A DNA stretch of 64,000 nt from Candidatus Zixiibacteriota bacterium. Lineage in GTDB: Bacteria; Zixibacteria; MSB-5A5; GN15; JACZUZ01. The notes beneath the pieces were generated by a model, which made no database searches, was not told where the DNA came from, and saw only the letters and a list, made by a program, of their open reading frames with translations. The position numbers and the translations under genes were made by a program. Location: positions 124,001 to 188,000 of the forward strand of contig JAJRPM010000004.1 in NCBI GenBank assembly GCA_024280775.1, written 5' to 3'. Every line of letters starts with the position of its first letter. The first letter of the stretch is position 1. Shown here piece after piece: positions 26,501-36,888 of the stretch.

Positions 26501-26593
26501 TCATTGCGAGGAGCGGAGCGACGCGGCAATCTCGTCGCTAACAAGGTAGTTCTATGAATCATTGGGATTGCCGCGCTTCGCTCGCAATGACTC
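26501..26593. repeat. Dispersed palindromic repeat (TCATTGCGAGGAGCGNAGCGACGCGGCAATC family) between hemE and hemL
   Basis: Arm 26501-26533 TCATTGCGAGGAGCGGAGCGACGCGGCAATCTC and inverted arm 26564-26593 GGGATTGCCGCGCTTCGCTCGCAATGACTC. Confidence 0.85.
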
Positions 26594-32576: not shown

Positions 32577-34286
32577 ATGTCAGATACATTGCTAACCAAA
32601 GATAACCCAACCGAAGAAACATCGGAATTGCAAATGACCTCCATCGAGCCACGCTCAACTGTCACTACACAGGGAATCATGTTGCTGAATCTCGGCACAC
32701 CCTCTGCTCCAGAAACCGGCGCAGTGCGGCGCTATCTTCGCCAGTTCCTCTCGGACCCGCGCGTGATGGACATCAGTCCTATCGGAAGATTCTTCCTGCT
32801 AAATCTAATCATCCTGCCCTTCCGCTCCAGTAAATCCGCCGAGGCCTACCGCTTAGTTTGGACCGACCAAGGCTCGCCAATTATCTGCCACGGAGAAAAG
32901 CTAACCGAGCTGGTGCAACAACGTCTCAATTCGAAGCAACCCGGCGCCTACAAAGTAAAGCTAGCAATGCGCTATGGCGAGCCATCTATCCAACGAGTCA
33001 TGCGCGAATTTCGCGACGAAGGAATAGACGCAATCAAAGTAGTCACCCTCTTCCCCCAATACGCTTCGGCAACAGTAGGCAGCGCTATGGAGGAAGTCTA
33101 TCGCGTAGCAAACCTTGAATGGAATATGCCCGTAATAACCGCCACACCCGCCTACTATGACCATCCCGGTTACATTGGCGCCTTCGCGGATGTCACAAAA
33201 ACTGCTGTCGATTCTGATAACTACGACTACTATCTCTTTAGCTTCCACGGACTCCCCGAACGACATATTCGCAAAGCCGACGCCGAAGACAATCCCGGAC
33301 AGCCGGAGCATTGCCTAGCCGATGGCTCCTGCTGTGAATGTATCACTTCGCGCAATCGCAATTGCTATCGCGCCCAATGCTACGCCACAGCCAGAGGCAT
33401 AGCCCGTAAACTTAAACTAGAAGATGGAACATGGTCAGTGAGTTTCCAGTCACGCTTAGGCCGCGAAGCTTGGATTCCACCCTATACTGATAAGAAAATC
33501 GAAGAACTAGCACAAAACGGAATCAAATCACTAGCGATTCTCTCCCCCGCCTTTGTAGCAGACTGCCTGGAAACCTTAGAGGAACTAGGCATCCGCGGCA
33601 AAGAATCCTTCCTAGAGGCAGGCGGAGAGAAATTCAAAATGATACCGTCACTAAATACAAACCCCAAATGGGTAGAAACTGTAATAGAATTGGCAACAAC
33701 AAACAATCCATCCATTGCAAGAAGCGAAGCGCCAAATCAGTCAATGCCAGGAACGGAGCAACGAATCAGTCATTGCGAGGAGCAAAGCGACGCGGCAATC
33801 CCGTCGCCCATAGATCGGGGCTTTGAAAAAGAAAATCAACGGAGCAACAACATGACCGCACATACATTCGAACCATCCCTAAGCCGCAAAGGACTAATCA
33901 CACTCTCTGGATTAGTTTGGTCATCAGCCGGAGTAATGCTACTCATCCGCGCCATCCTAATGATTGACACCATAACTACCACCGGCATAGCGCTAATAAT
34001 CCTCGGACTGGTAGTAGGAACCCTAAAGAGCAAATTCGTCCTCTCAACAGTAGCCCGCAAAAACATCGAGCGCATCAAAACCATGTCACCCGATAAATCA
34101 AAAATCTGCCTCTTCGCCTTCCAACCGGTGATGTCCTATCTCCTGATAGCGCTAATGGTCACCGCCGGTGTAACCCTGCGCCACTACTTCCCCCACTCGA
34201 TCTACGTAATCTCCCTATACTTCGCCATAGGCGCCGCCCTACTATACTCCGGCCTAGAATACTTCCGCAGCGCCAGCCAGGTATAA
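32577..34286 (+). CDS. hemH: Ferrochelatase fused in frame to a C-terminal multi-TM domain
   Basis: GIMLLNLGTPSAPETGAVRRYLRQFLSDPRV, FSFHGLPERH, SFQSRLGREAWIPPYTD; C-terminal hydrophobic segments after about 33852. Confidence 0.94.
   Translation: MSDTLLTKDNPTEETSELQMTSIEPRSTVTTQGIMLLNLGTPSAPETGAVRRYLRQFLSDPRVMDISPIGRFFLLNLIILPFRSSKSAEAYRLVWTDQGSPIICHGEKLTELVQQRLNSKQPGAYKVKLAMRYGEPSIQRVMREFRDEGIDAIKVVTLFPQYASATVGSAMEEVYRVANLEWNMPVITATPAYYDHPGYIGAFADVTKTAVDSDNYDYYLFSFHGLPERHIRKADAEDNPGQPEHCLADGSCCECITSRNRNCYRAQCYATARGIARKLKLEDGTWSVSFQSRLGREAWIPPYTDKKIEELAQNGIKSLAILSPAFVADCLETLEELGIRGKESFLEAGGEKFKMIPSLNTNPKWVETVIELATTNNPSIARSEAPNQSMPGTEQRISHCEEQSDAAIPSPIDRGFEKENQRSNNMTAHTFEPSLSRKGLITLSGLVWSSAGVMLLIRAILMIDTITTTGIALIILGLVVGTLKSKFVLSTVARKNIERIKTMSPDKSKICLFAFQPVMSYLLIALMVTAGVTLRHYFPHSIYVISLYFAIGAALLYSGLEYFRSASQV
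33713..33803 (+). repeat. 29-bp tandem array (3 degenerate copies) of the same repeat family as 26501-26593, inside the hemH ORF
   Basis: CATTGCAAGAAGCGAAGCGCCAAATCAGT / CAATGCCAGGAACGGAGCAACGAATCAGT / CATTGCGAGGAGCAAAGCGACGCGGCAATC, unit starts 33713, 33742, 33771. Confidence 0.85.
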
Positions 34287-34314: not shown

Positions 34315-36888
34315 TCAATTACCTATTCTCGATTCCTTGTGTTGTATCGCTCTTTGTGCCTGTATGGGGATATTGAGTTTGTCGGAAATCCATTGGCGAT
34401 CCTCATACCCAATGGAGTGAATGTATAAATGCCTTATTACAATATCTTTGAGCATCCTTTGCGCAATCCGGTTCTTTTCTAGATCCTTATGCAATCTTGC
34501 GATTTCTTTTTTCGGCAATTTATTTTGAAACTCTAATTTCATTGCCACTTCAATCAATCGAAGTGCGGGGGTTTCTTCACTCTCCGCCATAGCTTGGGTA
34601 GCAACGCCTATCAAGTCATGTGAGCCGGTATTGTCAGCAAGCTTCTTAACTACAGCATAACTGAACCCATAGCACAATGAAAGGAATATCTGTTGCGCGA
34701 CCTTGTCTCTCTTATTTTCCTTTACAGAATCGCCTTCAATAATCATTGATATATACTTTACTACATCATCCTTGTGGTCTTCCGTAAAACTCAGATAAAA
34801 TCCGAGACACTTCAATCCTGAACCGAAAGCGGCCATCAAAAGACTCTTGATTTGTTTTTTGGTTAGAGACGATTGTCTATTGCGGAGTATTTGGCCGATT
34901 ATTTCTACTATCCGTAAAGAGCGGTGCATATCTGCTATCAGCTCCGAAGAGTGTTCTTCTGATCTGTCCTCCTCATATCCAGACTCGTACTCATCTTTAT
35001 TAGCTAGATGCTTCTTCCGTTCCTCTTCAACATTACGCCTTTCAATAATTAGATCAGGCAAATCATGTAGTAATTCGGCGAGGTATGAAGTTTCGGAGAC
35101 GTTCAATGTTGCCGCATCTTGTTCCTCGAATACCATTTCCGCATTGAGCAAAAGCTCGTCAATAATCCCACTATCCCTGCTATGGTGCACAAGGAATATG
35201 AGTATGTTGGCATACTTCTCAACATGAAGTTTACCGCAAAGGTCATAGATTGTAGACTTGACACTCTTATCTTCAAGATGATCCGATAAGTACTTCGCTA
35301 CGAAGAAATAGAAAATGTACTTGTACTTGACAACTATTCCAGTGCTTTTTTCTGTCAAAATACCTGCCGCCTTGAGGTTACGTAAGACCTCATCATGAGA
35401 TCTTATCACATAATCTGCATCATATCTTTCCTTGAAAGCCACCAAGTCCTCGGGGTCCATCCATTCATAATTCCTCCTAAACATGAAGAATGATAATTCC
35501 GACAGGTAATTGATATATAGATCAAGTTGCTGGGTACTGATGTTTAATCGAAGTAGCGAGGCATGAATTACTGTTTGATAACAGTGACCATACGACGTCA
35601 AACTATAGTCGGCTGGTCTAGCTGAATCTAGTATTTGGAGGACCGTTAGAATGTAAATTGGTTTGGGCGGGAGGACGCTCTTGCTGACAATAGCATTGAC
35701 ATGCCTTGTAGCCACATCATTCAATGACTCCAACTCAGCGGGCTGAATCGTTTCTTTGCGTCCAAGGGAATTCCAAGTACTAATCAAATCTCCTCTTCTC
35801 AAGTGTCCCATTGGCAAGATGTCGTACTGTCTGAGACCAGACATCTCTGAATATACTTCCTCGTTTAGTCTTATCGAAGGGTCAGAGCAGATTACAACTT
35901 TGTCAAAAAGGTTTTGGGAATTGGCAAGAAACTCGCATAGAGAGCGATGATTAAGTTGCATTTCGTCAAAGTCATCAATCAATAGAATCTTTTCGGAAGC
36001 ACAGGCCAAGTATCTTCTTACGTCTGCCTTATCGTATTGTCTTGATACAATAGGTGCCAACAATTTCGCCACATCTGACTTGTTAATCACTCGGCCATCG
36101 ACAAGCAATGGGACTGCACCTAACTCATAGTAGTTTACCATAAGCCTTTGAAGGAGAGCTGTCTTGCCAACCTGGTCATCACCTAACAATAGCGTACTAC
36201 TCGAAACCGATTTCAGGTGCAATGCATCGCTGGACTGCTCAATATTGTCAATGCTTTCATATTTCCGCGTAATTTCCTTTATGTCTGGAAACACATAGAT
36301 ATTCGAAAGCCGGACTTCTTCACAATGCCGGTGCTGGAACTGAATTTGCGTGTCATCGAGATAAGACAAAAAGCCATCACTAATACGCAACGCATCTCCA
36401 CGAGCCAGATTTCCGCTTGGTGAAACTGCTTTGAACTGCGATGAAGTCCAATCTTTCAAAGTCTTCGTGATAGCTAGGGCCACTTTCAACCACCACTCGT
36501 CGGAATTCGATTCGGTTGGTGGCGACCCATTTTCATTTGCCGCCGTAAGACCGGACAATGGAGTACTTAGCCAATTGCACGACCGAACAATTATGGGTAC
36601 GAGCTTGATTCTTTTTTTCTCTAACGATTTAAGAGCAACTTCAAATTCGTCGCGATAGGCAGAAGTTGAAGCAAGAAAATCTTGACTTACCAAGAAACAT
36701 ATTACATCTGAGTTCTCAAGATTCTCTCTGATGACTTCCATGATCTTATCACCAGCAAGTAGTTTTTTGTCATGCCATGTAGATAGCTCTCCGTTCTTCT
36801 CCAAGACTACCAGCTGTTTTCGGAATTCTTCGAAGTGGTTAGTATCGGCGTGGCTATAGCTAATGAAAAGCCTAGGCTTATTGTTCAT
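34315..36888 (-). CDS. TIR domain-STAND (NACHT/AAA-like) NTPase with helical C-terminal region; candidate anti-phage effector-sensor
   Basis: N-terminal TIR (PRLFISYSHADTNHFEEFRKQL...WHDKKLLAGDKIMEVIRENLENSDVICFLVSQDFLASTSAYRDEFEVAL); Walker A LLLGDDQVGKTALLQ; Walker B KILLIDDFDEM; FKYKYIFYFFVAKYL-like segment resembling metallophosphoesterase-STAND proteins. Confidence 0.88.
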   Translation of the reverse strand: MNNKPRLFISYSHADTNHFEEFRKQLVVLEKNGELSTWHDKKLLAGDKIMEVIRENLENSDVICFLVSQDFLASTSAYRDEFEVALKSLEKKRIKLVPIIVRSCNWLSTPLSGLTAANENGSPPTESNSDEWWLKVALAITKTLKDWTSSQFKAVSPSGNLARGDALRISDGFLSYLDDTQIQFQHRHCEEVRLSNIYVFPDIKEITRKYESIDNIEQSSDALHLKSVSSSTLLLGDDQVGKTALLQRLMVNYYELGAVPLLVDGRVINKSDVAKLLAPIVSRQYDKADVRRYLACASEKILLIDDFDEMQLNHRSLCEFLANSQNLFDKVVICSDPSIRLNEEVYSEMSGLRQYDILPMGHLRRGDLISTWNSLGRKETIQPAELESLNDVATRHVNAIVSKSVLPPKPIYILTVLQILDSARPADYSLTSYGHCYQTVIHASLLRLNISTQQLDLYINYLSELSFFMFRRNYEWMDPEDLVAFKERYDADYVIRSHDEVLRNLKAAGILTEKSTGIVVKYKYIFYFFVAKYLSDHLEDKSVKSTIYDLCGKLHVEKYANILIFLVHHSRDSGIIDELLLNAEMVFEEQDAATLNVSETSYLAELLHDLPDLIIERRNVEEERKKHLANKDEYESGYEEDRSEEHSSELIADMHRSLRIVEIIGQILRNRQSSLTKKQIKSLLMAAFGSGLKCLGFYLSFTEDHKDDVVKYISMIIEGDSVKENKRDKVAQQIFLSLCYGFSYAVVKKLADNTGSHDLIGVATQAMAESEETPALRLIEVAMKLEFQNKLPKKEIARLHKDLEKNRIAQRMLKDIVIRHLYIHSIGYEDRQWISDKLNIPIQAQRAIQHKESRIGN

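Follow-up and report, generated by a model that had tools for sequence, protein, structure and literature searches.

A ferrochelatase and a four-helix membrane protein joined in one reading frame through a repeat-derived linker in a genus of Zixibacteria

The fused reading frame and its two domains

The window analysed in this work, a stretch of 64 kb whose coordinates are used below, belongs to a genome of 3.17 Mb in 17 contigs. On its forward strand it contains an open reading frame (ORF; 32577-34286) that starts with ATG and encodes 569 amino acids. The frame is open throughout: the first in-frame stop codon lies at 34284, and none separates its three successive parts, namely a ferrochelatase (HemH), a linker, and a membrane domain (Table 1). 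In a Pfam profile search, PF00762 matched residues 32-375 (E 5.9e-98; 328.2 bits against a cut-off of 27), and TIGR00109 scored 239.9 bits against a cut-off of 124.6, the curated cut-offs thus being exceeded over the full core. A homologue search of this genome and of that of a second species of the same genus (the congener) found no second HemH.

Table 1. Parts of the fused reading frame and elements of its linker (window coordinates)
Feature	Coordinates	Strand	Evidence
hemH part: ferrochelatase (HemH), residues 1-375, Pfam core 32-375	32577..33701	+	PF00762, TIGR00109
Linker, 50 codons, stop-free in the HemH frame, largely repeat-derived	33702..33851	+	Sequence, stop counts, shuffles
Degenerate repeat unit 1 (CATTGCAAGAAGCGAAGCG...)	33713..33741	+	17/19 to repeat head; p 0.0015 vs shuffles
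Degenerate repeat unit 2	33742..33770	+	p 0.0005 vs shuffles
Full repeat unit 3, TCATTGCGAGGAGCAAAGCGACGCGGCAATC, read as SHCEEQSDAAI	33770..33800	+	Exact member of the dispersed family
GGAG 7 nt upstream of ATG 33852; may be a ribosome-binding site kept from the once-separate membrane gene	33841..33851	+	Weak
Orphan membrane domain of four helices (144 aa), with stop codon	33852..34286	+	Homologues; AlphaFold; no Pfam family

The HemH part contains a cysteine-rich internal insertion (residues 246-268; window 33312-33380) with cysteines C246, C252, C253, C255, C263 and C268, all of which except C255 are common to the congener. Internal-type [2Fe-2S] ferrochelatases have an insertion of 22-34 amino acids with four coordinating cysteines (PMC8529089). 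The HemH described here resembles them in cysteine pattern, its cysteine-rich internal insertion including adjacent cysteines (C252-C253), and may be a candidate for such a cluster. A membrane domain is not reported for the [2Fe-2S] enzymes (PMC8529089), whereas this HemH has one.

The membrane domain was modelled by AlphaFold as four helices (mean pLDDT 83.5); no Pfam family matched it above the cut-off, and no fold match was found among solved structures (best E 5.3). The ATG at 33852 had been proposed as the start of an independent membrane protein, and the 144-aa stretch that it opens is indeed homologous to stand-alone membrane proteins. This family carries the motif KxKIC[IL]FAFQ and has members in Zixibacteria, Calditrichota and Nitrospirota. 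In another Zixibacterium, a stand-alone member lies directly upstream of hemA, hemC, hemD and hemB (L077, 3995-8426). Other stand-alone copies adjoin a ribonucleotide reductase gene (L076) or lie near ybeY (L083), and the link of the family to haem by gene neighbourhood is therefore partial.

The C-terminal CAB segment of cyanobacterial ferrochelatase is a membrane helix, and the fusion resembles that enzyme in being a ferrochelatase with a C-terminal membrane segment. C-terminal tails and insertions vary among ferrochelatases, CAB-type tails being among them, and the cyanobacterial CAB domain bears an ExxNxR motif (PMC8529089). Since this motif is absent from the C-terminal sequence of the fusion, and the modelled domain has four helices, the domain does not belong to the CAB type; the fusion differs from the cyanobacterial enzyme in ending in an orphan four-helix family, without sequence or fold match.

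As no stop codon precedes 34284, a ribosome that translates all of HemH necessarily goes on into the membrane domain, and cleavage or premature termination would be the only sources of free HemH. The positive charges of the membrane domain lie at its N-terminus and in loop 2 (8 K/R), with none in loop 1; by the positive-inside rule, this predicts an N-in topology, which would suit a HemH located in the cytoplasm. A HemH tethered to the membrane is thus the simplest prediction from the sequence. Modelling of the entire fusion from a two-row alignment gave no usable structure (mean pLDDT 35).

The linker and its dispersed repeat family

The residues that follow the ferrochelatase had been read in the initial annotation as translated repeat DNA made of three degenerate 29-bp units, and the presence of the repeat was confirmed. 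The 29-bp stretches starting at 33713, 33742 and 33771 match one another at 21, 20 and 19 of 29 positions; the third unit is exact, and the first two are significant against chance (Table 1). A general repeat finder with default settings reported no array in the linker, in keeping with the degeneracy of the array. The repeat is free of stop codons in all three forward frames (3/3), which enables the ORF to read each unit in a different frame. A stop-free linker of such size is expected by chance with P 0.12 here and 0.37 in the congener, so that openness alone is no proof of selection for the fusion. The linker RNA is no more stable in structure than its shuffles (z 0.34), and a search between the hemH part and the membrane part revealed neither terminator-like nor promoter-like sites.

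At three or fewer mismatches, the repeat has 20 copies in the fusion genome, 6 in the congener, and 13 and 11, respectively, in a pair of genomes from a different family; a reversed control pattern gave none at this threshold. The window holds two copies, compared with none in shuffles; the second (26501-26531) has one mismatch and is followed by an inverted partner. Tags and inverted partners were examined at individual loci. Inverted partners were found downstream of the copies at L043, L050, L065 and L066, and the tags were CGTC, TGTC or AGTC, the linker copy having AGTC. The ends of the repeat (ATTGC/GCAAT) are complementary, but in its most favourable single-strand fold the linker copy forms two other hairpins.

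Members of the CGTC REP superfamily have a CGTC (or TGTC/CCTC) tag at one end and a stem of 8-9 bp that opens with A-T pairs and closes on a loop of 4-5 nt, and are scattered in many copies, frequently as inverted pairs, with no transposase dedicated to them; REP elements also occur inside coding genes, as do the Rickettsia elements RPE-4 and RPE-6, with clusters that encode 43-82 residues (PMC3733652). The repeat described here is likewise a dispersed, multicopy element of about 30 bp, which is found singly and in inverted pairs and sometimes lies in frame inside proteins; its complementary ends, and the tag similar to CGTC or TGTC that many copies bear, are a possible further likeness. In the fusion ORF it is read as SHCEEQSDAAIP within a conserved protein, as are repeats of the RPE type. 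Its likeness to RPE-4 and RPE-6 is one of general description. It differs from the CGTC-tagged elements in that the linker copy carries AGTC and lies between two formerly separate genes as part of a fusion. Neither the letters nor the translation of the repeat had a match in the open-licence literature searched. The fusion genome has eight matches to Y1 transposase genes (PF01797).

Two further observations concern this family. A 283-aa ORF of the fusion genome (L002:881-1732, contig C14) contains two repeats near its C-terminus in the same frame (SHCEEQSDAAIP and SHCEERSDAAIP); no Pfam family matched it, and for this reason it is not certain to be a real gene. Partial copies of the repeat head (GTCATYGC) precede full repeats by 5-12 nt at L002, L050 and L062, suggesting tandem growth of the 5' end of the repeat.

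Comparison with related genomes

The initial annotation had called for a comparison of hemH 3' ends in related genomes. In the congener (L010/L072, contig JAJRPJ010000003.1), the same in-frame fusion is present without a stop codon, in an open frame of 632 aa, and the two fusions are 71-72% identical (72% over residues 14-568). In the sister genus (L011/L073), HemH ends at a TAA codon that is followed, after 29 nt, by a separate membrane ORF of 153 aa with GAGG before its ATG; this 29-nt gap contains nothing of the repeat (p 0.995). In a further genus (G003), HemH is broken between contigs and could not inform the comparison. Among 133 genomes of the phylum, the membrane family was found in 48, and a frame of more than 250 aa occurs only in the fusion genome and the congener (576 and 632 aa, versus 92-246 aa in the others). 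The fusion is thus restricted to this genus among the surveyed genomes, and the view of the membrane domain as a standard C-terminus of HemH was rejected, because all the other copies in the survey stand alone. The transition from separate to fused genes is well supported by these comparisons, and on the evidence of the two available species the fusion is a derived feature of the genus.

No conserved non-repeat linker is shared with the congener. The linker of the congener is shorter (35 codons) and different, with 22% amino acid identity over the aligned positions. It includes CGCGGCAATCCC, and the stretch around these bases can be aligned with the repeat (p 0.0025 against shuffles), an alignment equalled in about 0.2-0.4% of random window stretches; CGCGGCAATCCC is possibly a relic of the repeat, short and only moderately significant. 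The HemH cores of the two species share 79% amino acid identity (dN 0.15) and the membrane domains 72% (dN 0.20), dS being higher in both cases. Both domains are thus under purifying selection and the linker not visibly so, as would be expected of working domains joined by a spacer.

In the last ~90 codons of the membrane domain (window 34017-34283), the fraction of identical residues whose codons differ from those of the congener is only 0.17-0.30, compared with 0.45-0.62 in the HemH core, which may reflect recombination or a constraint at the nucleotide level.

Origin of the fusion

The best explanation, to which we assign a probability of roughly 55%, begins in the ancestor of the genus, where hemH would have lain beside the membrane-protein gene as it still does in the sister genus. 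A REP-like repeat, stop-free in its three forward frames, would have inserted into the short gap beyond the 3' end of hemH, with loss of the stop codon of that gene and in-frame joining of the two ORFs. Every ribosome that completes HemH must now read on through the linker of repeat origin and the four-helix domain, and the only ferrochelatase detected is predicted to be anchored at the inner face of the cytoplasmic membrane; a free membrane domain may also come from the old internal ATG. After the species split, the linker would have decayed as a neutral spacer, with both domains held under purifying selection. We infer the order of these events, the membrane location and any benefit; the repeat is a likely cause of the loss of the stop codon, and the relic in the congener, though short, favours its early presence. 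Only two fused species are known.

The initial annotation had proposed that a repeat joined separate genes by removing a stop codon. Its first half stands, as proteins that were once separate now form one ORF with repeat DNA at the join. The repeat as remover of the stop codon fared less well, the congener relic being weak, so the stop may have been lost by another route and the repeat inserted later. A point mutation or deletion would then have removed the hemH stop, and the repeat would have entered a neutral linker in one species only. We regard this sequence of events as a lesser but substantial possibility: the fused congener retains no more than 12 bases as a relic of the repeat, the insertion of RPEs into coding genes is an established phenomenon (PMC3733652), and protein tails of this genome also seem to receive the repeat in frame, as in ORF L002:881-1732. 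The relic lies, however, at the corresponding place in the congener, which is unlikely by chance (p about 0.003), and the degeneracy of units 1 and 2 indicates that the array is probably not recent.

The joint ORF could also be tolerated while functionally encoding two proteins, with its own ATG as the main source of the membrane domain, and with the joint product cleaved in the exposed linker or present as a minor form. ATG 33852 and its GGAG remain, the ATGs of all three members pair with the anti-Shine-Dalgarno (anti-SD) sequence at -5.8 to -7.0 kcal/mol, and the unconserved, hydrophilic linker is likely to be protease-sensitive. On the other hand, 14% to 24% of all ATGs in the window bind the anti-SD sequence as well (24% equal the -5.8 kcal/mol of ATG 33852), and without a stop codon complete translation alone cannot give free HemH. 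We regard such a two-protein arrangement, too, as a lesser possibility. A strong internal ribosome-binding site at ATG 33852 found no support beyond background. Loss of the stop codon by an assembly or sequencing error is highly improbable: although the congener is a metagenome-assembled genome and the fusion genome is probably likewise, the frame is equally open in a second species, 72% identical and with another linker, and the linker repeat matches its family exactly.

The fuller proposition that a repeat in the genus ancestor created an obligately membrane-tethered ferrochelatase, since kept by selection, is possible but less likely than not. The further suggestion that a change in unit number would toggle the fusion found no support, both species (two genomes) being fused and the units, 65-72% alike, being too degenerate for a typical slippage array; no genome with a variant unit number was present in the collections.

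Intragenic REP/RPE repeats and ORF fusions made by miniature elements are known, and the fusion is an unusual product of a known kind of event. Bacterial MITE/ERIC/RPE ORF fusions have been described, some of which give predicted membrane proteins through the in-frame fusion of a MITE (PMC2229807). The likeness lies in small mobile DNA that is read as protein and joined in frame to ORFs; the present case differs in that two complete, independently conserved proteins are joined, one of them a pathway enzyme. The present fusion was not reported in the open-licence papers searched. The common view of REP/RPE repeats inside genes is that they are passengers which the gene tolerates. Here a repeat is part of the join between complete conserved proteins, and the unfused neighbour genus makes its contribution to a new protein architecture testable. 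If the fuller proposition above is true, nature would offer here an example of a two-domain enzyme that repeat DNA has built from neighbouring genes. An uncharacterised four-helix membrane family is also linked to haem synthesis, through the fusion and the hemA-hemC-hemD-hemB neighbourhood.

The fusion is adjoined on the reverse strand by an 857-aa ORF (window 34315-36888) with TIR and STAND-like parts, a candidate anti-phage gene. The string 'RHCEEVRLSN' in this ORF was considered as a translation of the repeat and rejected, with no match to the repeat at the DNA level. The ORF scores 604 bits with the NCBIfam profile DS8_antiphage, below the cut-off of 790, and has PADLOC matches to PDC-S60 and to a ThsB-like TIR.
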